Assembly (NCBI GenBank): GCA_902531885.1
Contig: CACAFZ010000001.1
Location: 62,001 to 126,000, forward strand
Length of the DNA: 64,000 nt
Source of the DNA: an uncultured Pelagibacteraceae bacterium
GTDB lineage: Bacteria; Pseudomonadota; Alphaproteobacteria; Pelagibacterales; Pelagibacteraceae
Direction of reading: 5' to 3'
The position numbers were made by a program, and so were the translations under genes. Below are positions 3-30,778 of the stretch, piece by piece. The notes beneath the pieces were generated by a model. It was given only the letters and a program-made list of their open reading frames with translations. It did no database searches and was not told the DNA's origin. Positions within the stretch are counted from its first letter, which is position 1. Each line of letters starts with the position of its first letter.

Positions 3-1559
3 AAAGACTGGGAATACAAAAGAGACTTATTTGAATTAGATGAAAATGGTTTTGGAAAAGCAATTTATTCTTTTAATAAAAATAATAAAATTTATTCACT
101 ACTTTGTTTTTCTAATTATATTAAAGATGAAGATAGATCAGATAGAGTTATAGCTACAAAATGGGATGCTGCCTTTGTTCTGCATGATGGTATGCCAGAA
201 AAAAAAGATATTGAGCGTTTATATCAAAATGTTCCAAAACAAGAAATTGGAAGAGTTTCATATAAAGAGTTAAGTCTTTCAAGAGCAAACAAGTCAGTTA
301 GAATATTTAATCATGTAGTTGAAAGTTTATCTGTTGGGAAGCAACCAGATAAAAAAAAATTATCAGAAGTAGGGTACCTTTATAGAACTACAGCTGTTTA
401 CGGATCAGGAAAATTTGGTTTGGCAGATCGTTTTAGATTAAAAAATAGAGAAGAGATCAATGGACCTTTTCGACTTGAGATGATGTTAGTTTATCTCGTT
501 AGGCAATTTACATTCGATCAAGTTAATCATATAGCTAAATTAAAAAATCCAAACAAAGCTATAGAACTTGACAAAGAAATTTGCCGAAATCTTGGAATAG
601 GAAATTCAACTGGATTGGGCATGGCACCTTTTATAATTAACCATCCTACACTTTTAAATAATTGGATTTTAGCTAGGGAAACAGCACTAAAAAAAATAAG
701 AGAAATACAGAAAGTTAAATCAAATGATAAAGATTTATTCTTAAATTGCTTAAAAAGATCTTTAAATAATATTACAACTTGGAACTCTGATAGTGAATTT
801 CAAAAAAATAAAATTAATCAATTATTATCTGATCTGAATAAATTTATTAATTTTATAGAAAATGAGTTTGATTTTAATCAAGAATATGTATTTAACAAAA
901 TATACCTTTGGATTGAATCAAATCTTAAAGACGAATGTATTGAGTATATAGTCTCAATTATGATGGAGCCTTATGAACAAATTACAAATCCATTAGTTAA
1001 AAAAATGAGCTCCGATGAGGAAAAATATTTTAATATACCAGCCGATAGAACAATTTTTGATTTAAGAGGAATTTTAGAAAAAAATTATAAAAATATTATA
1101 AAGATAGATTTTAATGATAAAGAAAATAACAAATTTTTTTGGTTTGTTTCTAAGAACAAAGAGGAACCAAGGTTGGCGGACAGATATTTAGAAGAAGGTC
1201 ATGAGTTAGAACAACCATTAGCAATAGCTAGAGATATAAAAAAATTACATGAAAGAATTTCAAATGAAAAAAACTCATGCACTATAGCTAATTTTTTAAT
1301 AGAAAATAATGATCTAAGACACATTGTTAGAAGAGCATTTATAATTGAAAAATTTCCATACTCTGAAATTCAAGACAATATTATCGGATCCAAATTGATT
1401 CCTATAGACATGTTAAGATTGAAGCTATCCTTTTTTGGAGCACTAAAGTTTGATCCAAGATCTGATAAATGGCTGAGAATTACAATGTTTCAAGGGGCCC
1501 CTCTCCCTTATGAACTTAAAAAATTTAACGACCACTGGATATATAATTCTATAAATTAA
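3..1559 (+). CDS. conserved hypothetical protein, 5'-truncated by window edge
   Basis: Reading frame of the 192..1559 ORF stays open to the window start (KDWEYKRDLFELDENGFGKAIYSF...); the ATG at 192 is probably internal. Confidence 0.7.
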   Translation, partial: KDWEYKRDLFELDENGFGKAIYSFNKNNKIYSLLCFSNYIKDEDRSDRVIATKWDAAFVLHDGMPEKKDIERLYQNVPKQEIGRVSYKELSLSRANKSVRIFNHVVESLSVGKQPDKKKLSEVGYLYRTTAVYGSGKFGLADRFRLKNREEINGPFRLEMMLVYLVRQFTFDQVNHIAKLKNPNKAIELDKEICRNLGIGNSTGLGMAPFIINHPTLLNNWILARETALKKIREIQKVKSNDKDLFLNCLKRSLNNITTWNSDSEFQKNKINQLLSDLNKFINFIENEFDFNQEYVFNKIYLWIESNLKDECIEYIVSIMMEPYEQITNPLVKKMSSDEEKYFNIPADRTIFDLRGILEKNYKNIIKIDFNDKENNKFFWFVSKNKEEPRLADRYLEEGHELEQPLAIARDIKKLHERISNEKNSCTIANFLIENNDLRHIVRRAFIIEKFPYSEIQDNIIGSKLIPIDMLRLKLSFFGALKFDPRSDKWLRITMFQGAPLPYELKKFNDHWIYNSIN

Positions 1560-2925: not shown

Positions 2926-4284
2926 CTAACCTTTCACAACCTCTCTGGTATTTGCATTGAAAGATTGTTTAAACGGTATATCTACAACAACTGCATCTAC
3001 TGGTTGACCAGGTTTATCAGAGTATTTTTCAGGAAGATGAACTTTATATTTTGTTCCTACTTTTCCTTTAGGAAAACCATTTGCATTTAAAGTTCCATCA
3101 AAAGGTACATATCCCATTGCAATATTTTGTTTTTTTTCTGGGTGGTACCATGGAGATGTTATAAATCCAACTGGATCTCCACCATCTGTATTTGAAATTA
3201 ACCAAAAATCAGGTGCATACTCTTCAATTGGTTTTCCACCTAATTCGAGACCAACTAATTGAAGCTTGTAAGGTTTTTTACCAGCCTTGATTTCTGTGCC
3301 CATTTTTTCTAAAGCGGCTTTACCAACATAGTCAGTTTTTTTATTCCACTCGCCTTTTCCAGACAAGGAAACTTGATAACCAAGATTACATTGGTAAGGA
3401 TTATGCTCTGTATCCATATCTTGTCCCCAAGAAAGAATTCCAGCTTGAATTCTTCTATGATGAGCAGGAGCAATAACCATCAAATTATGTTTTTTTCCTG
3501 CTTCAAGAACAGCATTCCACATATCTTCTGCATATAAAGTTGCGTTTCTTAAATATATTTCATAGCCAGCCTCTCCCGAGAAACCAGATTGTGAAATTAC
3601 ACAACTTCTTCCAGCGACTTTAACTTCCGCTAAACCATAAAAAGGCATATTGTCTAAATCTACTTGATCTCCAAGTAAATCTTTCATTAAAGCTTTTGAC
3701 TTAGGTCCTTGGATTTGTACCGGACAAGCATCAATCTCTTCTATTCTACAATTAAATCTTCCGTCTGCATTAACACCTTGTAGATACATACCAATATCCG
3801 AGTCTGATAATGAAAACCAAAATTCATCTTTTGAAATTCTTAGTAGAATTGGATCGTTTAAAACTCCACCATATTGATTACATAAAATTACATACCTAGC
3901 TCTCATAGGAGAAATTTTTGTTGCATCTCTTGTTATTACATAGTCAGTAAATTTTTCTGCATCTGGTCCTTTAACTCTTATTTGTCTTTCAACAGCAACA
4001 TTCCACATTGTTACGTGATTAACAATCGCATCATACTCAACCATTGCACCACCATCTTCTGGTTTTACATATCCTCTTGGATGATAAATTCTATTATAAA
4101 CTGTTGCTCTCCAACAACCAGCCTGCATTGATAAATGCCAATAAGGTGATTTTCTTACTCTTGTAGAAATTAGCATTTCTACTTTTGTTGGACCACTTTG
4201 TCTTAAATTATATGGAACTTCTCTATCAGATTGATCAACTGAAGTTACATGTTTTAGTTTAGTATAGTCAAATTCATTAGACAT
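2926..4284 (-). CDS. GcvT/DmdA-like tetrahydrofolate-dependent demethylase
   Basis: 452 aa; DmdA-like features (WNVAVERQIRVKG, VLNDPILLRISKDEFWFSLSDSDI, RRIQAGILSWGQDMDTEHNPYQC). Confidence 0.75.
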   Translation of the reverse strand: MSNEFDYTKLKHVTSVDQSDREVPYNLRQSGPTKVEMLISTRVRKSPYWHLSMQAGCWRATVYNRIYHPRGYVKPEDGGAMVEYDAIVNHVTMWNVAVERQIRVKGPDAEKFTDYVITRDATKISPMRARYVILCNQYGGVLNDPILLRISKDEFWFSLSDSDIGMYLQGVNADGRFNCRIEEIDACPVQIQGPKSKALMKDLLGDQVDLDNMPFYGLAEVKVAGRSCVISQSGFSGEAGYEIYLRNATLYAEDMWNAVLEAGKKHNLMVIAPAHHRRIQAGILSWGQDMDTEHNPYQCNLGYQVSLSGKGEWNKKTDYVGKAALEKMGTEIKAGKKPYKLQLVGLELGGKPIEEYAPDFWLISNTDGGDPVGFITSPWYHPEKKQNIAMGYVPFDGTLNANGFPKGKVGTKYKVHLPEKYSDKPGQPVDAVVVDIPFKQSFNANTREVVKG

Positions 4285-5005
4285 AACTATTCTCCTTCAA
4301 CCACTTGTTTGTTTCCTTCAAGCCGCCGAATGTATAAATGTGGAAGTTTTCTGAATATTTTTTTACTTTCCCAATTAATTCATTAGGGTCTTTAGGTCTC
4401 ATTAAATCTAACGCCTTACTAAAATTAGACTTAAGAAAGTTTAAGGAATTTTTTGCTCCTACAATATTAGCAAATTTAATTAAGCTAGTTATTTTTAGAG
4501 GTCCAGTAATTCCAACATGAACTGGTACTGTTTGTTTGGAAATAAAATCTATGATTGGCTGAGGATCCAATAACCATTGGGTTACTATATAATCAGCGTA
4601 AGGCTTTTTATCTTTCATAGCTTTTTCTAAGTCAGAATCGGATATATCAGGACTCCCCTCGGGATGTCCAGCGATTCCTATCTTCAATTGTTCAAAATAG
4701 CCCGTCTCTAAAAGCTGAATTGAACTATCAAATTTTCCAACTGGTTCTCTACCACCACCAATAACAAGAACTTGTTTTACACCGCCATCTTTACATCTAG
4801 AGACATATTCTTTGAGTTGTTCATCATTTTCAATAGATCTAGCAGGAAAATGAGGTATTGGATTAAACCCTTTTTTGGCTAGTTTAGTAGCTTGTTCAGA
4901 AGTATCTTTATAATCACCCCCTGGAAGCATAGTTATGTATACATCCTTTAAAGATGGCAAAGTATCAAGGTCTGTCTTAGGCCCAATTTCCAAAGAAAAA
5001 TTCAT
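4277..5005 (-). CDS. methylenetetrahydrofolate reductase-like protein
   Basis: 242 aa MetF-like barrel features (ITMLPGGDYKDTSEQATKLAKKGFNPIPHFPARSI, KIGIAGHPEGSPDI); overlaps start of the DmdA-like gene. Confidence 0.7.
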   Translation of the reverse strand: MNFSLEIGPKTDLDTLPSLKDVYITMLPGGDYKDTSEQATKLAKKGFNPIPHFPARSIENDEQLKEYVSRCKDGGVKQVLVIGGGREPVGKFDSSIQLLETGYFEQLKIGIAGHPEGSPDISDSDLEKAMKDKKPYADYIVTQWLLDPQPIIDFISKQTVPVHVGITGPLKITSLIKFANIVGAKNSLNFLKSNFSKALDLMRPKDPNELIGKVKKYSENFHIYTFGGLKETNKWLKENSYV

Positions 5006-5069: not shown

Positions 5070-5954
5070 CTATTTTTTTATGCCTCTGTGTTTTTGAATT
5101 CTTCGACCATATTCTTGAGTAATTCTATCAAATATTATTGCTAAAGCTACTATAGCTAAACCATTCATTAAACCTAAAGCTAAATATTGATTTGATATAG
5201 CTCTTAAAATTGGAACACCTAACCCTTTTACTCCTATCATAGAAGCAATAACAACCATTGCTAAAGCCATCATAATTGTTTGATTAACCCCTGCAAAAAC
5301 AGTTGGTAGAGCCAAAGGTATTTGTACAGTTCTTAATTTTTGTATTTTAGTTGCCCCAAAAGCTTCACTGGCTTCTATTGTTTCTTTATCAACTTCTCTT
5401 ATTCCTAAATTTGTTAATCTTATAACCGGAGGTATTGCATAAATACAAACAGCAATTAAACCAGGAATTTTTCCTATACCAAGTAACATTAAAATTGGAA
5501 TTAAATAGACAAAACTAGGAATAGTTTGCATCATATCTAAAACAGGAAGCATAGCTTTTTCAACTCTATTAGATCTTGCCATAAGTATTCCAACAGGGAT
5601 TCCAACTGCTATACACATAATTGTACATACTGTTATTATAGCTACTGTTGCCATACAATCTTTCCACATGCCAAAATACCCGATTAACATAAAAGCTAAA
5701 ACACTTCCGACAACAAGCTTCCAACTTCTTGAACCTAACCATGCCAATATACCAAGCACCAACATTATTATTGGCCAAGGTGTAGCTAGTAATAATTTTT
5801 CTAACCTAATTAAAAAAAATAATAATGGATCAAAAAAAGCTTCTATACCGTCACCATAAGCTCTAGAAAATTCTCTAAATGTATGATCAATCCCTTTTCT
5901 TAATTCCATTAGGGAGGTACGTTCCATTACTGGAAATTTAGTTAAAAATTCCAT
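5070..5954 (-). CDS. proW: glycine betaine/proline-type ABC transporter permease (ProW/OpuAB family)
   Basis: Multi-pass, BPD_transp_1 signature (EASEAFGATKIQKLRTVQIPLALPTVFAGVNQTIMMALAMVVIASMIG). Confidence 0.85.
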   Translation of the reverse strand: MEFLTKFPVMERTSLMELRKGIDHTFREFSRAYGDGIEAFFDPLLFFLIRLEKLLLATPWPIIMLVLGILAWLGSRSWKLVVGSVLAFMLIGYFGMWKDCMATVAIITVCTIMCIAVGIPVGILMARSNRVEKAMLPVLDMMQTIPSFVYLIPILMLLGIGKIPGLIAVCIYAIPPVIRLTNLGIREVDKETIEASEAFGATKIQKLRTVQIPLALPTVFAGVNQTIMMALAMVVIASMIGVKGLGVPILRAISNQYLALGLMNGLAIVALAIIFDRITQEYGRRIQKHRGIKK

Positions 5955-6014: not shown

Positions 6015-7034
6015 TTAAAGACCAGCTTTGATTTTTTTAGCAGCTGCTGAAGAAACCCATTTACTCCAAACGGCTTCATGCTGTTTTAAAAATTCAATTG
6101 CTGCATCTGAACCTTTAGCTTGGTTGTCTGCCATATATACAAGCATTCCATTCATTACTTCACCTGGGTAAGTACGTTTTTCAACATAACTTAAAGCTTC
6201 TTTTCCACCAGTTTTTGCAAAGTTTGCTGTAACAATAGAATTAACTTCAGACTTTGTCCATGATGTAGGTTTAGGATTAGCACAATCTTGTTCAGCTAAT
6301 GTTATACAGTTATCCCAGTTATCTCTTCCACCAAATGGAACTCCAAAATCAACTGAAATTAAACCATATTTTCCAACCATTGATGTTGGATTCCAATAGT
6401 AACCAAACCAAGGATTTCCAGAATCAGCTGCCTTAGATATTGTACCATCTAAACCTGCTGCAGAACCTGGATCTATTAATACCCATCCTTTTTTTTCCAT
6501 TTCAAAAGCTCTGAAAAGGTTTGCATTAGCTAACTGACATCCCCATCCAGCTGGGCAACCAACAAAAGCTCCTTTAGAAGGATCTTCTTTTGATGGAAAC
6601 CATTCAGGATGTTCTAAGATTTGCATTGCAGTCATACCTTTTATCTCAGGAATTTTTTTAAGAGTTCCTGGAGTTATCCACCAGCCTTCACCAAGACCAG
6701 TAATAGGCGCTCCGTTTGCAATGATTAATCTTTTCTCTGAAACAGCTTTCTTTAAAGGTGTGTAAACAGCGTTAGCCCATTGTTCTGGGTTCATATCTGG
6801 TTCACCTTTTTCATCCATTGAAGTAAAAGTGGGCATAGTAGCACCTGGTATTAACTCTACTTCACAACCATATCCTTTTTCTAAAATTATTTTATCTACA
6901 TTGGCCATTAATTCAGCCGATGCCCAGTTTTGTTCAGCAATAACTAATTTTCCACATCCTGCATTAGCTACACTTGAAAAAGCACCGAATAAAAATACTG
7001 ACAACATAGTAAAAAGTATTTTTCTTATTTTCAT
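6015..7034 (-). CDS. proX: glycine betaine-type ABC transporter substrate-binding protein (OpuAC/ProX family)
   Basis: Signal peptide; OpuAC-like features (KLVIAEQNWASAELMANVDKIILEKGYGCEVELIPG). Confidence 0.85.
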   Translation of the reverse strand: MKIRKILFTMLSVFLFGAFSSVANAGCGKLVIAEQNWASAELMANVDKIILEKGYGCEVELIPGATMPTFTSMDEKGEPDMNPEQWANAVYTPLKKAVSEKRLIIANGAPITGLGEGWWITPGTLKKIPEIKGMTAMQILEHPEWFPSKEDPSKGAFVGCPAGWGCQLANANLFRAFEMEKKGWVLIDPGSAAGLDGTISKAADSGNPWFGYYWNPTSMVGKYGLISVDFGVPFGGRDNWDNCITLAEQDCANPKPTSWTKSEVNSIVTANFAKTGGKEALSYVEKRTYPGEVMNGMLVYMADNQAKGSDAAIEFLKQHEAVWSKWVSSAAAKKIKAGL

Positions 7035-7116: not shown

Positions 7117-9522
7117 TTATGATCTCATTTTAATACCTTTTGGGTCATACAAAGGCTGTTTTATTATTGAACAATCATAAAAATCACCATTAATTTCAAC
7201 TTGAAACTTTTCGTTAGATTTACAAATTGTCTCATCTAGATACGAGTAGGCAATACTTTTCTTTACATAGTGAGCATATCCTCCTGATGTTATGTAACCA
7301 ATACTTTTTCCATCTTTCATAACTGCTTCATTGTTAGTTACATCAATGTCTTTTGTTTCAACAATTAAAGGAGTAAGTTTTAAATTGCTTTTGTCATTTT
7401 CTGCACTTTTTTTACCAATAAAATCTTTTTTCCAATCAATAAAAATATCTAAACCGGACTCTTTAGCAGTAAAGTCTGGTCTAAAATCTAATGTCCAAGC
7501 ACCCCAGCTTTTTTCTAGTCTCATCGACATTAAAGCTCTTCCACCAAATGGTTTTAAATTGAATTCTTTTCCTGCATTTTCTATTTCCTCATAAAGCTTC
7601 AATTGAAAATGAGGAGCAACATAAATTTCGTATCCCAGCTCTCCAGTAAATGAAATTCTATTTACTATTGCAGGCACACCTGCAACAAACATTCTTTTTG
7701 TATCTCTAAATTTAAAATTATCATTAGAAACATCTTCTCTAACTAATTTTTGAAGCAAATCTCTTGATTTAGGGCCGGCAATTGAAATTCCATGAAAATC
7801 ATCTGATCTATTTATATATTTAACATTAAATTTACTTATATGGCTTTCAAACCATCTTCTATGCATTTCTTGTGCAGCACCAGAACCAAAAATCATAAAT
7901 TCATTTTCATCAAGACATGCAACAGTTAAATCTCCGTATAATTTTCCTTTGTAAGTAAGCATTGGACTTAAAGAAATCCTTTTCTGCTTTGGTAGTTTTC
8001 CAGCTAAAATATGATCTAAAAATTTTCTGGCATCTGGACCTTTAAATTCGTGTTTTGAAAAGTTTGCTACCTCAATAGCTCCTACATTTTCTCTTACATT
8101 TTGAACTTCTTTTGAGACATAGTCATGTGATCTTGATCTTTTAATTGTTGGCTCTTCATGAGCATCCTCTTTATTATTTGCAAACCATAAGACATTTTCT
8201 AGTCCAAAACTATCCCCCATGACTGCTCCTTTTGATACGAAACGATCATAAAGAGCTGTAGTTTTTTGTTTTCTACCTTTTGGTAAAGTTTCATTAGGAA
8301 AGGTCATAATAAATCTTCTTTCATAATTTTCTGAAGATTTAATTGTTCCATATTCAGGAGATGCATAATCTCCAAATCTTGCAATATCCATTGCCCAAAC
8401 ATCAATTGATGGTTCTCCGTCGATTATCCATTCAGCAATACATTTTCCAACACCACCACCTTGACAGAAGCCTGCCATAACACCAACTGCTACCCAATAG
8501 TTCTTCATTCCAGGCACGGGTCCAATTAGAGGACTACCATCTGGACCAAATGTAAAAGGGCCGTTTACAATATTTTTAATACCTGCTTTTTCTAAAGCTG
8601 GCATTCTTTCAAAACCAATTGCTAGCCTGTCTTGTATATTATCTAGCTTTGGTTCTAAAAGTTCATGGCCAAAATTCATTGGTGTCCCATTTACTTTCCA
8701 TGGAGTAGATTTTGGTTCATAAGTTCCAAGCAACATTCCTTTGCCTTCTTGTCTAAAATATATATTTCCTTCAAAGTCTGTTCCAATTGGTAATCTTTGA
8801 TCACCCATTGCTTCTATTTCTGGAATAGCTTCTGTAATTAAATAATGATGCTCCATTGGTTGAACAGGTAAATTCAATCCTGCTAATTTACCAACTTCTC
8901 TTGCCCACAAACCTCCAGCATTAATAACTATTTCTGCATTAATATTTCCTTTGTCAGTAATTACTTCCCAAGTTCCATCATTTTTTTGTTTAGTATCTTT
9001 AACAGTTGTATGAGTATAATATTTTCCTCCATGCACTTTTGCAGCTTTGGCAAAAGCATAGGTTACTCCAGACGGATCTACTTCACCATCAATTGGATCC
9101 CATAATGCTAAAAGATATCTTTTAGGATCGATTAATGGATTTTTCTTTTTAACTTCTTCTAGAGAAATAAATTCTTGATCAAGACCCATGTATCTTGCTT
9201 TTGATCTTTCTCTTTTTAAATAGTCAGCCCAAACTTCATTAGAAGCTAAATAAAAACCACCACTTGGTTTAAATCCAATTGCGTGTCCAGACTCTTTTTC
9301 AATTTCTTTATAAAGACCAATAGTATAAGCCATCATTCTTGAAATGTTTGGATCAGAAGAAATTACGTGAACATTTCCTGCGGCATGCCAAGAAGAGCCA
9401 GAAGTTAATTCGCTTCTTTCTAAAAGAATACAATCTTTTAAACCGAATTTAGATAGATGATAAAGTATAGAACAACCAACTACACCACCGCCTATTACAA
9501 CTACTTTGGCATGTTTTTCCAT
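7117..9522 (-). CDS. FAD-dependent dimethylglycine/sarcosine dehydrogenase-like enzyme with C-terminal GcvT domain
   Basis: 801 aa; N-terminal DAO fold ([43 protein letters not shown]), C-terminal aminomethyltransferase domain. Confidence 0.85.
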   Translation of the reverse strand: MEKHAKVVVIGGGVVGCSILYHLSKFGLKDCILLERSELTSGSSWHAAGNVHVISSDPNISRMMAYTIGLYKEIEKESGHAIGFKPSGGFYLASNEVWADYLKRERSKARYMGLDQEFISLEEVKKKNPLIDPKRYLLALWDPIDGEVDPSGVTYAFAKAAKVHGGKYYTHTTVKDTKQKNDGTWEVITDKGNINAEIVINAGGLWAREVGKLAGLNLPVQPMEHHYLITEAIPEIEAMGDQRLPIGTDFEGNIYFRQEGKGMLLGTYEPKSTPWKVNGTPMNFGHELLEPKLDNIQDRLAIGFERMPALEKAGIKNIVNGPFTFGPDGSPLIGPVPGMKNYWVAVGVMAGFCQGGGVGKCIAEWIIDGEPSIDVWAMDIARFGDYASPEYGTIKSSENYERRFIMTFPNETLPKGRKQKTTALYDRFVSKGAVMGDSFGLENVLWFANNKEDAHEEPTIKRSRSHDYVSKEVQNVRENVGAIEVANFSKHEFKGPDARKFLDHILAGKLPKQKRISLSPMLTYKGKLYGDLTVACLDENEFMIFGSGAAQEMHRRWFESHISKFNVKYINRSDDFHGISIAGPKSRDLLQKLVREDVSNDNFKFRDTKRMFVAGVPAIVNRISFTGELGYEIYVAPHFQLKLYEEIENAGKEFNLKPFGGRALMSMRLEKSWGAWTLDFRPDFTAKESGLDIFIDWKKDFIGKKSAENDKSNLKLTPLIVETKDIDVTNNEAVMKDGKSIGYITSGGYAHYVKKSIAYSYLDETICKSNEKFQVEINGDFYDCSIIKQPLYDPKGIKMRS

Positions 9523-9531
9523 TACAGAATA

Positions 9532-10578
9532 TTATAAGGTTTTTGCTGCGTCTGTGTTGTGTTTTTTTAAACTTGAATCAGTTCCATGTGCATAGTGCTT
9601 AGACATATCCGGGTAGTACTTATATGAAATAGGTTTTCTGCCCAACGCAACTGCCATTTCTCTAACATGATGAGGTTCCGCTCCACAACATATTCCTATG
9701 AAATTGATTTTTTTTTCTGCACATTCTTTTGCAAATTCTGCCATTTCAAATCTATTACAATACAAATTGTCTAATGCAACAGGGAAGGCATTTCCACCAG
9801 GTATACAGTCACAACCATCATCAATCTGATTTAAAAAACCAGGATTTTTTTCTGTAGTTCTATAAGGAACAGGTAGTGCAGCAACATGACAAGAAACTGC
9901 TTTTCTTATTTCTGGTAAAAGTTTCATTGTCATTTTTGGACCCCTAAAGCAATTTAATCCAACAACATCAGCTCCGTTATCTTCTAGTATTTTGCACGCT
10001 TCTCCAGGTGAAGTTCCTTCTCTTGTTTTACCATCTCTTCTAAATGCATAATTACAAACCGCTATTAAACCTGCATCTTTAATAACTTTAAGTGCAATTT
10101 TTAATTCTTCTACCCAAGTTATTGTTTCAGCAATAACAAAATCAACTCCTGCTTCTTTTGCCCAACCAACTTGCTCTTCAAACATTTTTTGACACTCAAC
10201 ATTGCTTTTTTTATCGTTTGGATCATATAAATTTGTATTAGCTACATTTCCTGCTACCAACAGATCAAGATCTTTAAATTCATCTCTTGCATCTTTGGCA
10301 ATTTTTAAAGCATTTTTTTGTAGTGGTTCAAGAAGATTCTCTTTTCCGATTATTCTAAGTTTTTCTCTATGTCCGTAATAAGTAAATGCTTGAACAACTT
10401 CGCTTCCCGATCTTATAAATTCTCTGTGTAATTGTGAAACTACTTCTGGATGCTCTAAAACTACTTCAGGTACAAAAGCTCCAGCTTGTAAATAACCTCT
10501 TCTTTCCATTGCAAAAAGATAACCTTCTGCACAAAGGACAGGTCCGTTATTAAGCCTTTCAATTAAATTTTTTCCCAT
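9532..10578 (-). CDS. bhmT: betaine-homocysteine S-methyltransferase-like (homocysteine S-methyltransferase family)
   Basis: 348 aa; GADVVGLNCFRGP and GICCGAEPHHVREMA zinc-site Cys motifs. Confidence 0.85.
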   Translation of the reverse strand: MGKNLIERLNNGPVLCAEGYLFAMERRGYLQAGAFVPEVVLEHPEVVSQLHREFIRSGSEVVQAFTYYGHREKLRIIGKENLLEPLQKNALKIAKDARDEFKDLDLLVAGNVANTNLYDPNDKKSNVECQKMFEEQVGWAKEAGVDFVIAETITWVEELKIALKVIKDAGLIAVCNYAFRRDGKTREGTSPGEACKILEDNGADVVGLNCFRGPKMTMKLLPEIRKAVSCHVAALPVPYRTTEKNPGFLNQIDDGCDCIPGGNAFPVALDNLYCNRFEMAEFAKECAEKKINFIGICCGAEPHHVREMAVALGRKPISYKYYPDMSKHYAHGTDSSLKKHNTDAAKTL

Positions 10579-10667: not shown

Positions 10668-11297
10668 ATGGCACAAAAAGACGTAGGAAATAAAATACCA
10701 ATATACAAATTAAAAAAAACCGATGAGGTAATGAAATATTACGATGAATGGGGAGAAGGTAATAAATATGACAAAGATATGGTTGACTGGAATTATACAG
10801 GACCAAAGGAAACATCGGAGGTATTGGTTAAACATCAGAAAAATAAGGATGCTAAAATTTATGATGCTGGTTGTGGCACTGGATTAGTAGGTGTTGAACT
10901 TAAGAAGTATGGTTTTTCAAATTTTTATGGCGCAGATCTTTCACAAAAACTTTTAGATCTAGTTCCAAAAGATCTTTATCAAAAGTTAGATAAAGTTGAT
11001 TTAAATAAAACAATACAAGAGAAAGATAACTATTTTGATGTTGTTATGTGTGTAGGCACTTTTACTTTTGGGCACGTTAAACCTCCAGCTTTAGATGAAT
11101 TTATAAGGATTACAAAAAACAAAGGATTAATTTGTTTTACAATAAATGAAGGTATTCATGAAGAATATGGTTTTGATAAAAAAATAGACCAACTCAAAAA
11201 AGATAATAAATGGAAAGAAATAGAATTTTTTAAATCAAATTATATAGCAAGCAAAGATGTAAATGCTTGGCTTGGTCTTTACGAGGTTATCAAGTAG
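10668..11297 (+). CDS. class I SAM-dependent methyltransferase
   Basis: IYDAGCGTGLVGVELKKYGF motif I; NYFDVVMCVGTFTFGH. Confidence 0.8.
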   Translation: MAQKDVGNKIPIYKLKKTDEVMKYYDEWGEGNKYDKDMVDWNYTGPKETSEVLVKHQKNKDAKIYDAGCGTGLVGVELKKYGFSNFYGADLSQKLLDLVPKDLYQKLDKVDLNKTIQEKDNYFDVVMCVGTFTFGHVKPPALDEFIRITKNKGLICFTINEGIHEEYGFDKKIDQLKKDNKWKEIEFFKSNYIASKDVNAWLGLYEVIK

Positions 11298-12472
11298 TGT
11301 CAGAAGTATATAACATCATAGAAAAGAAAAAATTAGATGTTGTAAGCAATCCAATAGAAAAATCTCATGGCCTTCCAAATGAATGTTATACAAGTGAAAA
11401 ATATACTCAACTTGAAAGAAAAAAACTATTTGAAGACAAATGGGTTGTTATAGGTGTAGCAAGTTCATTGCCAAATAAAGGTGATGCAAAACCTTTTGAT
11501 CTATTAGGTATTCCAATAATAATTTTAAGAGATAAAAAAAATAAAATACGAGTTTTTCACAATGTTTGTAGTCATAGAGGGTACAAAATTTTACAAAAAA
11601 GCTGCAAAATTAAAAATCTTATAAGATGCCCATATCATTCTTGGTCCTATGATACGAGTGGCAAACTAATTGCAACTCCACATTTAGGAGGAATGAATAA
11701 ACATGAATGTAAAAAATTTGATAAATCTAAAAGTAATCTTAAAGAAATTAGATCAAGTGTTTGGTTGGATATGATATTTATAAACATTAGTGAAAACGAA
11801 ATTTCATTTGAAAAATACATAAAACCCTTAAGTGATAGATGGGAACAGTTTTGGCCTAAAAAGGATAGAAAACTAATGGTTTATTCAAATGATTTTGGAT
11901 ATTTTAATTTAAATGCAAAATGTAATTGGAAATTTGCAATAGAAAATTATTGTGAAAGTTATCATTTGCCATGGGTACATCCTGGTTTAAATTCTTATTC
12001 GAAGATTAGTGATCACTATCATATTCAAGGATTACCCAATCGTTTTGCAGGACAAGGTACCAAAGTTTATAATCCAAAACTTAAGGGAAAAGAAAAATTT
12101 CCTTGTTTTCCAAACTGGCCTAAAGATAAAGAACATATTGCAGAGTATGTAGCTTTATTTCCTAATGTTATGTTAGGTATTCATAAGGATCATTTTTATG
12201 CATACTGGCTTGAACCAGTGGATCATAAATTTACTAAAGAACATATGGAGATTTATTATGTGGGAGAAAAAGCCGCTAATTCAAAAAAATATAAATCTTT
12301 AAGAAAACAGAATCACAAACTTTGGAAAAGTGTTCAAGTTGAAGATGTTGGCATAATTGAAGGTATGCAAGAAGGAAGAAATTCACCATCTTATAATGGT
12401 GGAAATTTTTCACCAGTTATGGATAATCCAACTCATCACTTTCATAAATGGGTTGCTACAAATATAGTTTAA
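11297..12472 (+). CDS. Rieske [2Fe-2S] non-heme iron oxygenase alpha subunit, quaternary-ammonium oxygenase-like
   Basis: Rieske motif CSHRG-x(n)-CPYHSW; iron site ENYCESYHLPWVH with Glu at the bridging position. GTG at 11297 overlapping upstream stop is the preferred start over 11267. Confidence 0.8.
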   Translation: MSEVYNIIEKKKLDVVSNPIEKSHGLPNECYTSEKYTQLERKKLFEDKWVVIGVASSLPNKGDAKPFDLLGIPIIILRDKKNKIRVFHNVCSHRGYKILQKSCKIKNLIRCPYHSWSYDTSGKLIATPHLGGMNKHECKKFDKSKSNLKEIRSSVWLDMIFINISENEISFEKYIKPLSDRWEQFWPKKDRKLMVYSNDFGYFNLNAKCNWKFAIENYCESYHLPWVHPGLNSYSKISDHYHIQGLPNRFAGQGTKVYNPKLKGKEKFPCFPNWPKDKEHIAEYVALFPNVMLGIHKDHFYAYWLEPVDHKFTKEHMEIYYVGEKAANSKKYKSLRKQNHKLWKSVQVEDVGIIEGMQEGRNSPSYNGGNFSPVMDNPTHHFHKWVATNIV

Positions 12473-12473
12473 C

Positions 12474-13709
12474 ATGAAATTTAAAAGAAAGATTAATCCT
12501 GATTTAAAACCTAAAACAAATTTCATTACCAAAAAAAGATTAAGAGAAGATGAAATTAATTTTGATAAACTTAGATCTTACAGACTAGATAGAGTTAAAA
12601 AAGAATTAGAAAAAAATAATTTAGAAGCCTGTATATTATTTGATCCAGTTAACATCAGGTATGCATTAGATACCGTAAACATGAGCGTTTATAATATGCA
12701 TAATCTTACACGATACTGCTTTATTCCGGTGAGTGGACCAGCAATACTTTATGAGTATTTTAATTGCGAAATACTATCCAAGCATTTAAATTTAATTGAT
12801 GAAATAAGACCAGCAATAACATGGGATTATTTTAGCAATGGTGACCAGGCAAGCTCACAATTAAAGAAATGGATTAACGAAGTTAAGGAATTATCAAATT
12901 CTTATTTTAAAAGTAAAAAAATAGCAATTGATGTTATTAATGGCTCTGCAGTAACAGCTTTAAATCAAGAAAACATTAAAGTTGTTGATGCTAAATTAAT
13001 TTTAGAACAAGCAAGAGTGATTAAATCTTCTGAAGAATTAAAATGTATGAAGGCAGCAATAGATGTTGCTGAAATTGGTGTAACTAAAATGCGTAATGAA
13101 TTAAAAGCTGGTATGACCGAAGATGAACTTTGGTCAATTTTACACAAAACCAATATTGAACACGGTGGAGAATGGATTGAGTGTAGAATTTTATCTTCTG
13201 GTGAAAGAACAAACCCATGGATGCAAGAAAGTAGCAATAAAGTAATTCAAAAATGTGAAATAGTATCTTTTGATACAGATATGGTTGGCCCTTATGGATA
13301 TTGTGCGGATATATCAAGAGCATTTGTAGAAGGACATAAATTTAATGATGATCAAAAAAAATTATATCAAATGGCTGTTGAGCAAATTAATCATAATTAT
13401 AGATTAATAAAATCTGGGACATCTTTTAAAGAATTTACTGAAAAATCTTGGAAACTTCCTGATGAATATTATGGAAACAGATATTCATGTATGCTTCATG
13501 GAATTGGTCTATGCGATGAGTGGCCACAAATAAAATATCCAACTGATGGTGGACAAAGAGAAGGTCATTTTGAAAAAAATATGACCATCACACTTGAGAG
13601 TTATATTGGCAAAGTAGGTGGTAAAGAAGGGGTTAAACTTGAACAACAGTACTTAGTAGGTGAGAATAACCTTGAACTTATGTCCCATCATCCTTTAGAA
13701 GATATCTAA
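12474..13709 (+). CDS. M24-family protein closely resembling DMSP lyase DddP
   Basis: LFDPVNIRYALDTVNM, WIECRILSSGERTNPWMQE, EIVSFDTDMVGPYGYCADISR, YSCMLHGIGLCDEWP, TLESY and KLEQQ; D-x-D...D/H/E/E spacing as recalled for DddP. Confidence 0.75.
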   Translation: MKFKRKINPDLKPKTNFITKKRLREDEINFDKLRSYRLDRVKKELEKNNLEACILFDPVNIRYALDTVNMSVYNMHNLTRYCFIPVSGPAILYEYFNCEILSKHLNLIDEIRPAITWDYFSNGDQASSQLKKWINEVKELSNSYFKSKKIAIDVINGSAVTALNQENIKVVDAKLILEQARVIKSSEELKCMKAAIDVAEIGVTKMRNELKAGMTEDELWSILHKTNIEHGGEWIECRILSSGERTNPWMQESSNKVIQKCEIVSFDTDMVGPYGYCADISRAFVEGHKFNDDQKKLYQMAVEQINHNYRLIKSGTSFKEFTEKSWKLPDEYYGNRYSCMLHGIGLCDEWPQIKYPTDGGQREGHFEKNMTITLESYIGKVGGKEGVKLEQQYLVGENNLELMSHHPLEDI

Positions 13710-14125
13710 TGAAAATAATTTTAATTATGGGATTGCCTGGTGCAGGCAAAACGACTTTAGCAAATGAGCTAGCTAAATTAATTAAAGCAAAAAGATTAAA
13801 TGCAGATGAGATTAGAAAAGCTGCTAATGATTGGGATTTTTCTGAAGAAGGTAGAACAAGACAATCAAAAAGAATGTCAGAAGCTGCGCTAAAAATTAAA
13901 AATGAAGGCAACAATGTAATTGCTGACTTTATATGCCCAACACCTGAAGCAAGAAAATTATTTCCAGCAGATTATGTTGTTTGGGTAGATACTATTCAAA
14001 AAGGTAGATTTGAAGATACTAATCAAATGTTCGTCAAACCTGAAAAATTTGACTTTCATGTCACTTCACAAGACGCGCAGACTTGGGCTCCTAAAATATT
14101 TGAAAATATAAAAATAATTCTATAA
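13709..14125 (+). CDS. small P-loop kinase (adenylylsulfate-kinase-like)
   Basis: Walker A GLPGAGKTTLANELAK; RLNADEIRKAANDWDFSEEGR. Confidence 0.65.
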   Translation: MKIILIMGLPGAGKTTLANELAKLIKAKRLNADEIRKAANDWDFSEEGRTRQSKRMSEAALKIKNEGNNVIADFICPTPEARKLFPADYVVWVDTIQKGRFEDTNQMFVKPEKFDFHVTSQDAQTWAPKIFENIKIIL

Positions 14126-14138
14126 AAATTATTTTTTT

Positions 14139-16370
14139 ATGAAGTTTTTAATAAAAATCATTTGGGTTCTGTTAATAATATTTCCGATTTCTAATTCATA
14201 TGGAGCCATGGTTACTAAAGTACAGAGAGTAGTGGTCGATAATAGTGGTCGAGTTATAAGTGGTATTCATTTTAATACTGATGGAACAAAAATGTTTACA
14301 ATATACCAAACTAAAGCTTCTGGCGATTATACGCATGTAAGTGAATATAATTTAGCTAAAGCATTTGACGTCTCTACAAGATCTTACGCAGGCGATAGTG
14401 AAAGATGTATATTAAATCATGGTGGTACGATGACTACTACGTATGATTTAGAATTTAGTAGTGATGGAATGAAACTATTTTTTGTAGAGGGACCGAATGC
14501 TAGTGGAAATGATGCAGACAAGGTATTTCAATTTGATTTGACTTCGCCTTATGATGTTTCAACATGTACATATGCAAGCAATGCAACATCAAATCTAGAG
14601 GGTGATAATGACTTACAAAATGGAAGTAACGCTGGAAGTCGTACCAGTAAATCTAAAAATCGCCTTCAAGGATTTGAAATTAATGATGATGGAACAAAAA
14701 TATTTTTAGTTTATCATGGTGCAGGAACTGAAAAAGCAAGATTATTGGAGTATCAACTTTCAACTCCATTTGACTTAACATCAATATCTCTTGTTACTTC
14801 TGCAGGAATTTTATTAGAAGGACAAGGCGTAGAAAACCCTATGGGAGCGAGATTTAGTCCAAATGGAAAAAGACTTTGGATTACCAGTCATAATTCATCT
14901 ACAGTAGCCGTTACTCAAATTTCACTTAGCAAGTCTTACGATACTTCATCATTCACAATAGATGGTTCATTTTCACTAACTGGCATTGTTACACAACCAA
15001 GAGGAATTTCATTCAATGCAAATGGTTTAAAAATGTATATTGGTAGCGACCCTGATGAGGATGGAACTGACCACATTTATGAATTCGATTTAGTTTGTCC
15101 TTTCAATATTATTTCAGGAAGCTGTCCTTCGATTACAGATAATAGTGATAGAACTGGAATGGCAGAAGCTCAAATAGAATTAGCAAAAAGATCAATTACT
15201 CTATCAACAAATACGGCTTTAAATAGACTTAAGTGGATTAGAAGAAACAAAGATAAACAAGATTTATCTAATCAAAATGTAAAATTAAATTTTTCAAACA
15301 GTATGCTTTCATCTTTAAAAGCACTACCAATTTCATCATTTAAAAAAATTTCATCTTCTAAACATGAAAACGACTCAAAAAAAAAATATTTTTCTTGGAG
15401 CGAAGGCAGCGTTTCTTTTGGAAGAGTAGGAGATACCAGTATTGCATCGACAAAAGAAACTCATACAAATTCTTTAACTATTGGTTTTGATAAATTTACA
15501 GATGATTATAGTCTTGAAGGTTTTGCCTTTAGAATTGGTAATGATGATGTTGATGTTGGTAATACTGGGAGCAATTTAGCTTCAAATACTTATAATATTA
15601 CATATTATAGTACATCACCTGTAAAAGATGACACAAAATATGTCGATAAGATCTTTGGTATAGGAAAAATAATATCAGATATACATACAGTTATTGATGG
15701 CAAAAATATAGAAGCAGATAGAACAGGAAATCAAATATACGGTACAGTAAAAATTAAAGATGAGTATAAAAAAGACAATCTTACTCTTATCCCATCCGGA
15801 CAATTTAATTTTGGACACACTATTTTAAATGGATACAGAGAAGAAGGTGCCGGAGCTATTAAAGTTGAAGATCAACATATTCGAACGAGAAAGTTAAGAA
15901 CAGCTATGGCACTGGTAGAAGATTTATCAAATGATAAATACACCTTAAAAAGACATGGTAAATTGGAATATGTAGCTGATATAGATCGTTCATCTAGCTT
16001 TAAATACACTTATGTTTCAGATGATAGTTATTCATTGAATGATACATTACATACTGGCGCATTACACAATCTTAACGGCGAGATTGGTTTTGATATAATT
16101 TTTCCAGATCATTATAGTATTTTTGTAATATATGAGAGAAACCATGCTTTCGGCTCAGGGTATACGGATAATATATATATTGCTTTAGGATATTTACCTC
16201 AAAAAGATACTGAGTATGCATTTTCAATTAATGGCTCAGAAAACTTAATGTCTCAATTTGAAATAAAGAAAAATATTAACGAGTATGATTTTAGCTTTAA
16301 TTTAAACAACGATTTAACGAATTTAGGAAAAAATAAAGAGGCAAGTATAAATTTAAATAAAGTCTTTTAA
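14139..16370 (+). CDS. secreted beta-propeller-like repeat protein with C-terminal autotransporter-like beta-barrel
   Basis: 743 aa; signal peptide; repeated F-x-x-DGTKMF...YxLxxPFDVST motifs; C-terminal amphipathic strands ending in Phe. Confidence 0.65.
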   Translation: MKFLIKIIWVLLIIFPISNSYGAMVTKVQRVVVDNSGRVISGIHFNTDGTKMFTIYQTKASGDYTHVSEYNLAKAFDVSTRSYAGDSERCILNHGGTMTTTYDLEFSSDGMKLFFVEGPNASGNDADKVFQFDLTSPYDVSTCTYASNATSNLEGDNDLQNGSNAGSRTSKSKNRLQGFEINDDGTKIFLVYHGAGTEKARLLEYQLSTPFDLTSISLVTSAGILLEGQGVENPMGARFSPNGKRLWITSHNSSTVAVTQISLSKSYDTSSFTIDGSFSLTGIVTQPRGISFNANGLKMYIGSDPDEDGTDHIYEFDLVCPFNIISGSCPSITDNSDRTGMAEAQIELAKRSITLSTNTALNRLKWIRRNKDKQDLSNQNVKLNFSNSMLSSLKALPISSFKKISSSKHENDSKKKYFSWSEGSVSFGRVGDTSIASTKETHTNSLTIGFDKFTDDYSLEGFAFRIGNDDVDVGNTGSNLASNTYNITYYSTSPVKDDTKYVDKIFGIGKIISDIHTVIDGKNIEADRTGNQIYGTVKIKDEYKKDNLTLIPSGQFNFGHTILNGYREEGAGAIKVEDQHIRTRKLRTAMALVEDLSNDKYTLKRHGKLEYVADIDRSSSFKYTYVSDDSYSLNDTLHTGALHNLNGEIGFDIIFPDHYSIFVIYERNHAFGSGYTDNIYIALGYLPQKDTEYAFSINGSENLMSQFEIKKNINEYDFSFNLNNDLTNLGKNKEASINLNKVF

Positions 16371-16402: not shown

Positions 16403-16777
16403 ATGAGCTACAAATGGGATAACAAAAAACCAACAGCACAAATGCTAGGAAGATGGCAACCGTTCCACGATGGTCATTATGCTTTATTTGAAGAAATCAT
16501 AAAAAAAACTGGTCAAGTTTGTATTCAAATTAGAGATGTACAAGGAGTAGATGATAATCCTTTTGATTTTGAAACAGTTAAAAAAAAAATAGAAGAAAGA
16601 TTAAATCCAAAATATGAGGGTAGATTTAAAATCATTCTAGTACCAAATATAACTAACATTTGTTACGGCAGAGGTGTTGGTTATAAAATAGAAGAAATAG
16701 TTATGCCTGAAGAAATACAAAAAATTTCAGCAACTAAAATTAGAGCTAAGATGCGAGAGGACGGAGATTTAAAGTGA
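16403..16777 (+). CDS. cytidylyl/adenylyltransferase-family protein
   Basis: GRWQPFHDGHYALFEEI (HxGH-type) and ISATKIRAKM. Confidence 0.75.
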   Translation: MSYKWDNKKPTAQMLGRWQPFHDGHYALFEEIIKKTGQVCIQIRDVQGVDDNPFDFETVKKKIEERLNPKYEGRFKIILVPNITNICYGRGVGYKIEEIVMPEEIQKISATKIRAKMREDGDLK

Positions 16778-17625
16778 ACGAAAGACTTAAGTCGATAGTA
16801 GATTTAGAAAAATATCCAATCTATGACTTAAATTCTCCAATAATTAAAAATTTAATTAAAAGATGCAAAGAAGAACTAGACCAATTTAGTTGTTCAACTA
16901 TTCCTAATTTCATTTTACCAAAATCATTAGAGATAATGAATTCAGAATTAGAAAAACAGTTAAATGAGGTTTATATGTCTAAAGAAAGTATAAATGCTTA
17001 TTTGTATGCTGAAGACGATCCAAAATTACCTAAGGATCATCCAAAAAGAACTTTTATGAATAGATATAACGGATATTTAAATTCTGATTGTTTTCCTAAA
17101 AATTCTGAAATGAAATATCTTTATGAAACAGATGAACTTTTAAAATTTGTATCTGCATGTTTAGGAGTTTCTCCAATATATAGATGGGCTGATCCTTTAG
17201 CTTGTCATGCTTATAATGTTATGGAGCCTGAAGGAATACTTCCTTGGCATTTTGATAGTTGTGAATTTACATTAAGCTTAATGATTCAAAAACCAGAGAA
17301 AGGTGGAATATTTGAATACTGCCCAAATATAAGAGAACCTGGTAATGAAAATTTTGACGAAGTTAAAAAAGTTTTAAATGGTGATAGAGCACGAGTTAAA
17401 CAATTAAAATTAGAACCAGGTGATCTGCAAATATTTAAAGGAAGATTTACTTTACATAGAGTTACAAAAATAGAAGGGCAAAAATCAAGATACATGTGCA
17501 TACCAGCTTATGTTTTAGATCCCTGGAGAGTAAACACTCCAGAACATTCAAAAGCAATTTATGGTAAAGTGTTACCAATTCATTTAGAGAGAAATGTTGC
17601 TAGATCAGATGGCCTAGCAGATTGA
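16774..17625 (+). CDS. Fe(II)/2-oxoglutarate-dependent oxygenase (BesD/HalD-like sequence group, hydroxylase-type HxD)
   Basis: LPWHFDSCEFTLSLMIQ (HxD), distal LHRVTKIEGQKSRY. Confidence 0.65.
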   Translation: MNERLKSIVDLEKYPIYDLNSPIIKNLIKRCKEELDQFSCSTIPNFILPKSLEIMNSELEKQLNEVYMSKESINAYLYAEDDPKLPKDHPKRTFMNRYNGYLNSDCFPKNSEMKYLYETDELLKFVSACLGVSPIYRWADPLACHAYNVMEPEGILPWHFDSCEFTLSLMIQKPEKGGIFEYCPNIREPGNENFDEVKKVLNGDRARVKQLKLEPGDLQIFKGRFTLHRVTKIEGQKSRYMCIPAYVLDPWRVNTPEHSKAIYGKVLPIHLERNVARSDGLAD

Positions 17626-17639
17626 TATGAGAATTAATT

Positions 17640-17837
17640 ATGATAAAAAAATCTAAAGAGCATTTAGATTTAGTAAACGAGACTTATATTAAACATTTTA
17701 AAGTTGCATTTAGTGTTAGTAGCTTAATGATTATAGGAGGTTTCCAAGCAATAATTCACGCAATATGTCCTGCAATATTTCAGACTTCTGCAAGTGACAA
17801 GATAAAAAAATTACACGAAAAAATTTCTAAAAGATGA
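17640..17837 (+). CDS. small conserved protein (DUF6356-like)
   Basis: 65 aa, HLxxVxETYxxHFxxA pattern; overlaps next start. Confidence 0.55.
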   Translation: MIKKSKEHLDLVNETYIKHFKVAFSVSSLMIIGGFQAIIHAICPAIFQTSASDKIKKLHEKISKR

Positions 17838-18781
17838 AAAGCAATATTAAAAATGTTGCTGTTGTTGGCACAGGGGTAATTGGAACTGGATGGATAATTA
17901 GATTTTTAGCTCATAATAAAAAAGTTGTAGCATTTGATAAAGATCTTAAATTAAAAAAGAGAATAATTGCAGAGATAAAACGTACTTGGCCTTATGTAAA
18001 AAAATTATTCAATAAAAAAAAATTAAATATAAAAAATTTTATTTATGTTACTTCAATTGAAGAAGCCTTAAAGGAAGCAGATTTTATCCAAGAATGTGCA
18101 TCTGAAAATTATAAAATCAAAACAAAGCTGATGAACGTGATTGGTAATTATGCAAAACCAAATGCTATAATCTCATCAAGTTCATCTGGGTTACTTCCAA
18201 CAAGAATATATTCAAAATGTAAAAATCCAGCTCGCACCATGATAGCGCATCCATTTAATCCAGTTTATATGTGCCCTGGCGTTGAAATTGTTCCAGGTAA
18301 AAAAACAAAAAGTAAGTTTTTGAATGTAGCTAATAAATTTTACAAATCTATCTCGATGAATCCAATCATGGTAAAAAAAGAATTACCAGGTTATCTATCA
18401 GATAGACTCCAAGAAGCCTTATGGAGAGAAGCATTACATATAGTAAATGAAGGATATGCTACTACAAAAGATTTAGATAGAGCAATTGAAGATGGTCCTG
18501 GCCTAAGATGGTCATTAATGGGAACCTTCCTAACATTTCATTTAGCAGGTGGTAAAGCTGGTATGAAACATATGTTAGAACAATTTGGACCTGCGTTAAA
18601 ATTACCTTGGACAAAACTGAAAGCTCCAAAGCTTTCAAAAAAACTTTCATCGAGAGTTATTATTGGCACTAGAAACCAAGCAAAAGGCAAATCAGTAGAA
18701 CAATTATCAAAAATTAGAGATGAATATTTAGTTAAACTTCAGAAGTTAAGAAAAAAATATGAAGACAAGATAAGAAAATGA
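17834..18781 (+). CDS. 3-hydroxyacyl-CoA dehydrogenase family; L-carnitine dehydrogenase-like
   Basis: NVAVVGTGVIGTGWIIRFLAHN Rossmann motif; MIAHPFNPVYMCPGVEIVPG. Confidence 0.75.
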   Translation: MKSNIKNVAVVGTGVIGTGWIIRFLAHNKKVVAFDKDLKLKKRIIAEIKRTWPYVKKLFNKKKLNIKNFIYVTSIEEALKEADFIQECASENYKIKTKLMNVIGNYAKPNAIISSSSSGLLPTRIYSKCKNPARTMIAHPFNPVYMCPGVEIVPGKKTKSKFLNVANKFYKSISMNPIMVKKELPGYLSDRLQEALWREALHIVNEGYATTKDLDRAIEDGPGLRWSLMGTFLTFHLAGGKAGMKHMLEQFGPALKLPWTKLKAPKLSKKLSSRVIIGTRNQAKGKSVEQLSKIRDEYLVKLQKLRKKYEDKIRK

Positions 18782-18796
18782 TAGTAATAAAATATC

Positions 18797-19570
18797 ATGA
18801 ATGTCTTGGTCAAAAATTTGGGTAACGGCATAAAAAATATAACAATAAACGATCCAAAAACATATAATTCTCTATCTTTTGCAACTTTAAGATCTCTTTT
18901 AAATACTTTTAAAAAACTTGATAAAGACAACAATACAAAAGTAATAATTTTGAATGGAGCTGGAAAAGGCTTTAGCGCAGGTCATAACCTGAAAGAAGTA
19001 AAATCTTTAAAAGTAAGATCAAAATATCTCAAACTATTTAATCTTTGCTCAAAATTAATGATCCAAATAGTTGAAGGAAGAAAACCAGTTATAGCAAAAG
19101 TGCATGGAGCAGCTTATGCCGCTGGATGCCAACTAGCAACAAGTTGCGACTTGGCTTACAGCACTACTAATGCAACATTTGCAACTCCTGGAGTTAATAT
19201 TGGATTATTCTGTAGTACACCAATGGTTGCCGTTAGTAGAAAAATTAGCAGAAAGAGAATGATGAAAATGCTTTTAACTGGTGAACCCATTAATGCAAAA
19301 TATGCAAAAGAAATAGGATTGATTAATGATTGTTTTTCAAAATCGAAACTTAATAAGGAAGTTTTAAAAGTTGCAAAAACAATCGCATCCAAATCAAATT
19401 TAACAATTAAAATTGGAAAACAAGCTTTTTATAAACAATTAGAAATGCCATTAAGAAAAGCTTACGCATATACAAGCAGAGCGATGACTTTAAACATGAT
19501 GTCTGTTGATGCTCATGAGGGTATATCGGCGTTTTTAAACAAAAGAAAACCTAAATGGAAAAATAAATGA
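18797..19570 (+). CDS. enoyl-CoA hydratase/isomerase family protein
   Basis: GAGKGFSAGHNLKE and AKVHGAAYAAGCQLATSCDLAYST. Confidence 0.85.
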   Translation: MNVLVKNLGNGIKNITINDPKTYNSLSFATLRSLLNTFKKLDKDNNTKVIILNGAGKGFSAGHNLKEVKSLKVRSKYLKLFNLCSKLMIQIVEGRKPVIAKVHGAAYAAGCQLATSCDLAYSTTNATFATPGVNIGLFCSTPMVAVSRKISRKRMMKMLLTGEPINAKYAKEIGLINDCFSKSKLNKEVLKVAKTIASKSNLTIKIGKQAFYKQLEMPLRKAYAYTSRAMTLNMMSVDAHEGISAFLNKRKPKWKNK

Positions 19571-29779: not shown

Positions 29780-30778
29780 ATGTCGGATAAATTTAAAGCA
29801 ATCATAATCAATCAAGATGGTGAAAAATTTTCAAGGGAAATAAAAGAAGTAGATAAAAATTTTTTAGAGGGAGATGTTTTAGTTAAAGTTGATTATTCAG
29901 ATTTAAATTTTAAAGATGCACTAATATTAAACAATGGTGGAAAACTTGTAAAAGAATTTCCGAGAATACCAGGAATTGATTTTTCAGGTAAAGTTGTTGA
30001 AAGTAATGCTGATAACTTTAAAGAAGGAGATGAAGTTGTTATTACAGGATGTAGAGTTGGAGAAATTTCTCATGGTGGATACTCACAATTTGCAAAAGTA
30101 AAAAAAGATTTTCTAGTTAAATTACCAAAAGGCATTTCTACTAAAGAGGCAATGATACTTGGCACTGCAGGTTTTACATCTTTAATGTGTGCTTTTGCAA
30201 TCAAAGCAAGAGAAGAAATTTTATTAGGTGAAAAAGTAAAAGACGTTCTTGTAACTGGAGCAACAGGTGGAGTTGGTTCTATCGCTATTATGGTTTTGTC
30301 TAAATTTGGTTACAATGTTACTGCTGTTACTGGAAAAATGGATAAATCTGATAGCTTAAAAAAACTAGGAGCATCAAGTATTATTGATCGAAAAGAATTT
30401 GAGGGCGAGCCTAAACTTTTAGGAAAAGGTGTTTGGGATGGGGTTGTTGACACAGTAGGTGGAAATATTTTAGCTCATGCAATTTCTCAAACTAAGCACT
30501 CAGGAATTGTTGCGGCATGTGGAAATGCTGGTGGTATTAAATTAAGTACTAGTGTAATGCCTTTTATTTTAAGAGGTGTAAAACTTTGGGGAATAGATTC
30601 TGTAGCAGTAAGCCTTAAAAGAAGAGAATTTGTTTGGAGTCAGGTACCAAACTTAATAGATTTTAACCTTCTAAATGAAACTATAAAAATTGTAAGCATG
30701 AAAGAATTATTAGATATATTTCCTCAAATGCTTAAAGGTCAAACATCAGGTAGAATTGTAGTTGATGTAAATAAATAA
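29780..30778 (+). CDS. acuI: acryloyl-CoA reductase / YhdH-family oxidoreductase
   Basis: VDYSDLNFKDALILNNGGKLVKEFPRIPGIDFSG; VLVTGATGGVGSIAIMVLSKFGYNVTAVTGK. Confidence 0.8.
   Translation: MSDKFKAIIINQDGEKFSREIKEVDKNFLEGDVLVKVDYSDLNFKDALILNNGGKLVKEFPRIPGIDFSGKVVESNADNFKEGDEVVITGCRVGEISHGGYSQFAKVKKDFLVKLPKGISTKEAMILGTAGFTSLMCAFAIKAREEILLGEKVKDVLVTGATGGVGSIAIMVLSKFGYNVTAVTGKMDKSDSLKKLGASSIIDRKEFEGEPKLLGKGVWDGVVDTVGGNILAHAISQTKHSGIVAACGNAGGIKLSTSVMPFILRGVKLWGIDSVAVSLKRREFVWSQVPNLIDFNLLNETIKIVSMKELLDIFPQMLKGQTSGRIVVDVNK

Follow-up and report, generated by a model that had tools for sequence, protein, structure and literature searches.

DddP cleaves dimethylsulfoniopropionate (DMSP) into DMS and acrylate and is represented by the solved proteins RlDddP (4RZY) and RdDddP (4B28) and by the NCBIfam model NF043017. 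It is a two-domain M24 protein with the pita-bread fold, in which six residues (D295, D297, D307, H371, E406 and E421) serve as metal ligands, and Tyr366 and Asp377 above the metals are the proposed catalytic residues of RdDddP (PMC4108388). An FYF primer core is conserved among the known DddP groups (PMC4304780). The M24 fold is shared by ectoine hydrolase DoeA and creatinase, whose substrates are small, nitrogenous and of the osmolyte type. Here we describe a DddP-like M24 protein, P0001, encoded in a stretch of 64,000 nucleotides (the window) from the 875-kb, 71%-complete genome of an uncultured SAR11 bacterium (Pelagibacteraceae). Its gene and the surrounding features are listed in Table 1.

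Table 1. Features of the window, with positions counted from its first letter.
Feature	Position	Strand	Remarks
455-aa ORF	192-1559	+	adjoins DUF3726 gene; no Pfam/NCBIfam match at thresholds used
GcvT-family DmdA-like demethylase	2926-4284	-	231 bits against cut-off of 410; not DmdA
Methylenetetrahydrofolate reductase (MTHFR)-like protein	4277-5005	-	
Betaine/choline-type ABC permease	5070-5954	-	
OpuAC substrate-binding protein, DmpX-like	6015-7034	-	closest solved protein RnDmpX 7YLE (DMSP-binding)
Dimethylglycine dehydrogenase-like DAO+GcvT protein	7117-9522	-	
Betaine-homocysteine methyltransferase (BHMT)-like S-methyltransferase	9532-10578	-	
SAM-dependent methyltransferase-like protein	10668-11297	+	
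Rieske oxygenase alpha subunit, GbcA/CntA-like	11267-12472	+	start probably near 11300
DddP-like M24 protein P0001	12474-13709	+	411 aa; ATG at 12474, stop at 13709
Small P-loop kinase-like protein (APS kinase/AAA_33)	13709-14125	+	overlaps M24 stop codon
Autotransporter-like gene (beta-domain)	14139-16370	+	inside island in some relatives, missing in others
Nucleotidyltransferase-like protein	16403-16777	+	weak match
HalD-family Fe/2-oxoglutarate oxygenase	16774-17625	+	WHFD (HxD, hydroxylase-type) motif
L-carnitine dehydrogenase-like protein	17834-18781	+	350 bits against cut-off of 414; only in some relatives
Enoyl-CoA hydratase/isomerase family	18797-19570	+	
AcuI/YhdH-family gene	29780-30778		about 16 kb from P0001

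Pfam assigns P0001 to Peptidase_M24/Creatinase_N. The first-pass annotation had read the protein as DddP-like instead of as an Xaa-Pro peptidase, and our results bear this out. Every sequence block that it quoted is found in the protein (LFDPVNIRYALDTVNM, WIECRILSSGERTNPWMQE, EIVSFDTDMVGPYGYCADISR and HGIGLCDEWP), and the GEWI and RTNPW blocks are shared with DddP. The spacing of the metal site is as described as well: D267 and D269 lie in SFDTD, D279 follows 10 residues on and H342 another 63 on, and E375 and E390 are part of TLESY and KLEQQ. In the alignment these six residues coincide with the RdDddP/RlDddP ligands, and Y337 and D348 are the equivalents of Tyr366 and Asp377. By sequence the best solved match is RlDddP (phmmer, E 1.7e-80, 274 bits, against 67 bits for the best peptidase), and the DddP model NF043017 is matched at E 3.1e-103; with such values the likeness to DddP is far above chance. 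The structural model that had been proposed as a check gives the same picture: the AlphaFold model (mean pLDDT 86) lies nearest to RlDddP (TM 0.88, 1.9 A), against TM 0.64-0.74 for prolidases, creatinase and DoeA (0.65-0.74 for prolidases alone). The last two also differ from P0001 in sequence, with an identity of 14-18%. The Xaa-Pro peptidases/prolidases (M24B) are closest to P0001 neither in fold nor in sequence, which speaks against membership of that family. Overall, sequence, predicted fold and the conserved catalytic Asp and Tyr support a DddP-type M24 fold for P0001 rather than that of a prolidase.

The active site is conserved within SAR11. Across 64 SAR11 copies no substitution was seen at the metal and catalytic positions, with gaps in a few truncated copies; position 269 is N in L007, a SAR11 relative outside this set. 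Differences among the 64 copies amount to 12.9, 6.3 and 35.0% at codon positions 1, 2 and 3, which indicates purifying selection on the gene. The presence of the Asp377 equivalent in P0001 is informative, since this residue is sometimes lost in other lineages of the DddP-like superfamily (Gly in 13 of 95 members). Deep DddP-like lineages were found at six loci (L224 7517, L225 7475, L218, L221, L223 and L226); in the last four a HalD gene adjoins the DddP-like gene, and Gly occupies the Asp377 position in at least L218. Elsewhere DddP-like M24 genes stand in tandem, up to four per alphaproteobacterial locus (L137, L147, L158, L188 and L213).

Placement relative to canonical DddP gives a different outcome. 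P0001 reaches 345.9 bits on NF043017, well under the equivalog cut-off of 600 bits, and its identity to DddP is 35-37%. Among the controls, DddP of another SAR11 family scores 787.8 bits, Oceanisphaera 626.5 and a SAR116-like genome 572.2; since the latter also just misses, the cut-off must be called strict. We built a careful tree of 68 rows under a mixture model, the fungal DddP sequences being left out of this and the other tree. Here one clade (100/99) unites the DddP of the other SAR11 family with the ratified RlDddP and the SAR116-like proteins linked to AcuI. P0001 falls outside this clade, joined with a second streamlined alphaproteobacterial lineage in a clade of their own (100/100) that is set off by a long branch. 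A constraint that groups the P0001 clade with canonical DddP carries a penalty of 41 log units and is rejected in this tree (AU p 0.017). A larger but quick tree of 134 rows gave an AU p of 0.81 for that grouping; it was set aside, as its free search ended poorer than the constrained one. Given this result, the sequence-based placement outside the canonical clade is favoured rather than proved.

Three further characters distinguish P0001 from canonical DddP. The first is the N-terminal loop-helix appendix (RdDddP residues 10-50), which we tracked through the motif E[IT]GPT: this is present in 21/21 canonical DddP and in 0/164 other members, and it is absent from P0001, where 31 residues precede the core against 50 or more in canonical DddP. 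Secondly, the FYF core occurs in 20/22 canonical DddP (and in some other lineages) but reads DYF in 13 SAR11 representatives. Finally, A103, F140 (Y in one case) and F155 of canonical DddP, of which A103 and F155 are invariant among canonical members, are replaced in SAR11 by Y81, D118 and W133. The suggestion that the gene encodes a candidate DMSP lyase is weakened by these findings, though a DmpX-like receptor in the neighbourhood still leaves room for it. The refuting result named beforehand, placement outside the DddP clade together with loss of substrate-pocket residues, was obtained by half: P0001 is placed outside the clade, but the metal ligands and proposed catalytic residues are all in place.

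The closest relatives of P0001 are from Pelagibacteraceae single-cell genomes (74-99% identity), after which identity falls to 48% (Kiloniellaceae, Rhodospirillales, Oceanospirillum). M24 proteins of Rhizobium, Paraburkholderia, Caballeronia and Pseudomonas are 40-47% identical to P0001 and have the same active site; they are annotated as 'Xaa-Pro peptidase family protein', and a Rieske or HalD gene adjoins several of them. They differ from P0001 in their terrestrial hosts, other accessory genes and separate clades.

A Rieske oxygenase neighbour had been reported for the M24 gene, and such a gene indeed ends 1 base ahead of the P0001 start. It resembles the betaine-type Rieske proteins CntA and GbcA: its best solved relative is carnitine monooxygenase CntA (full-length alignment, E about 7e-36), whereas on the GbcA model it scores 127.7 bits against a cut-off of 670. 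Next to it, the window shows no reductase gene. The OpuAC receptor keeps seven of the eight RnDmpX pocket residues (W35, T64, W84, E113, W152, Y200 and W202), with A153 changed to G. The DmdA-like GcvT gene overlaps the MTHFR-like gene, and several relatives have the pair in divergent orientation to the Rieske-M24-HalD genes; the two might form a THF-dependent demethylase with its own reductase, distinct from DmdA. The gene content of the island points to onium catabolism as its probable role. The neighbours indicate the class of pathway, not the step carried out by P0001.

Co-occurrence was counted in 120 same-genus genomes, of which 39 carry the M24 gene and 81 do not. HalD is present in 39/39 of the carriers and in 7/81 of the non-carriers (Fisher p 9e-25, which overstates the support because the genomes are from one genus and non-independent). 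In 10 of the 39 the two genes are unlinked, being on different contigs or more than 10 kb apart. The Rieske gene also accompanies the M24 gene in 39/39 genomes, and is found in 38/81 without it. As to AcuI, the first-pass annotation had pointed to a reductase of this type at some distance from the M24 gene. The gene is there, but it is uninformative: AcuI occurs in 35/39 genomes with the M24 gene and 67/81 without (p 0.42), that is in 102/120 overall and in 42/43 near-complete genomes. Being near-universal in the genus, its proximity was discarded as evidence for a DMSP lyase.

Neighbourhoods of DddP-like M24 genes in other bacteria show comparable combinations. A HalD homologue adjoins the M24 gene in Pseudomonas sp. 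MPC6 (172 bp, 51%), in Caballeronia SBC2 (16 bp, 39%) and in several alphaproteobacterial genomes, and the HxD motif was present in all M24-adjacent homologues that were read. An FrhB-like neighbour (47%) is common to Pseudomonas sp. MPC6 and some SAR11 loci. Operons of Rieske, reductase and M24 genes exist in Paraburkholderia and Rhizobium, with a split arrangement in Caballeronia grimmiae; in Oceanospirillum the Rieske gene is divergent to the M24 gene. MttB or dimethylglycine dehydrogenase genes flank many other DddP-like M24 loci. AcuI neighbours at 43-44% identity are restricted to the canonical DddP clade; outside it, one locus is flanked by a match of 28%. Stachydrine or hydroxyproline betaine was not adopted as a substrate, being hinted at by Rhizobium and Pseudomonas neighbours only and not by the SAR11 island. 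The open literature yielded nothing usable that ties DddP to a Rieske protein, or homarine or proline-betaine operons to an M24 gene.

Other layouts were also observed. In some SAR11 islands (L071, 8152-13988) M24 and HalD are followed by class II aldolase, carnitine dehydrogenase-like, FrhB-like and aldehyde dehydrogenase genes, a hydroxylate-then-aldol-cleave layout. In the other SAR11 family (L018, 158-4159) canonical DddP (788 bits) stands between a gamma-butyrobetaine dioxygenase-like gene (312 against 415 bits) and BHMT/dimethylglycine dehydrogenase. Rhodobacteraceae plasmids (L243, L244) carry a HalD-like gene with MttB and a dimethylglycine dehydrogenase-like FAD protein, with no M24 gene in the stretch shown.

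Taking the evidence together, we lean towards P0001 being a di-metal M24 enzyme of the DddP type, from a non-canonical clade, that would act in the degradation of betaine-type (onium) osmolytes in SAR11 with HalD as a partner. The data show the homology, the conserved site, the separate clade and the conserved partners; for the substrate, the type of reaction and the order of steps we infer the following. The substrate would be bound through its carboxylate by two metal ions whose ligands are D267, D269, D279, H342, E375 and E390. With D348 as the base, possibly assisted by Y337, a carbon-onium bond would be broken, either in an elimination like that of DddP or in a hydrolysis like that of creatinase. 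The HalD-type oxygenase would act before or after P0001, as would probably the CntA/GbcA-like Rieske protein, and the methylated product might be taken on by BHMT and dimethylglycine dehydrogenase. More tentatively, P0001 may stand for a new type of M24 enzyme for the cleavage of a betaine, hydroxylated or not, that works in SAR11 as a module with these two oxygenases, canonical DddP then being one specialised offshoot.

We regard it as rather doubtful that P0001 is a divergent but genuine lyase of DMSP (and DMSOP), with acrylate and DMS (or DMSO) as products, that forms an extra SAR11 branch. The intact set of metal ligands and Tyr366/Asp377 equivalents would allow for this, and the fungal FgDddP is reported active at only 32% identity to RdDddP (PMC4108388). 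AcuI is present in the genome, and its distance from the M24 gene is weak evidence in either case, since the known roseobacter dddP is likewise unlinked to acuI (PMC3338564). The DmpX-like binding protein fits DMSP and, as far as its sequence can tell, would count against the betaine reading; however, the host already has a true DmdA (575 bits), so that DMSP uptake is expected anyway. Against a lyase stand the model score, the position in the tree and the missing appendix motif and FYF core, and the conserved partners are betaine-type oxygenases rather than AcuI. It is more improbable still that P0001 is an ordinary M24 hydrolase lying in a betaine island by chance, be it a dipeptidase or, in the manner of creatinase and DoeA, an enzyme hydrolysing amidines or amides: the Pfam label and the osmolyte-type substrates handled by DoeA and creatinase would suit it, but all such enzymes are far more distant than RlDddP, the DddP-specific Asp377 equivalent is kept and the onium-enzyme neighbours are conserved.

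In the surface ocean, no bacteria are more abundant than SAR11. One published marine survey called DddP with an HMM at E 1e-30 and found two tested DddP sequences active, which may or may not include members of the P0001 group (PMC8520302). A search of this type could count the P0001 group as DMS-producing, since P0001 matches NF043017 at E 3e-103 and keeps the curation residues. If P0001 acts on another onium compound, as the betaine reading would have it, DddP counts for SAR11 would be inflated and a SAR11 osmolyte pathway would have gone unnoticed; should DMSP be its substrate after all, a further lyase would be added to SAR11.
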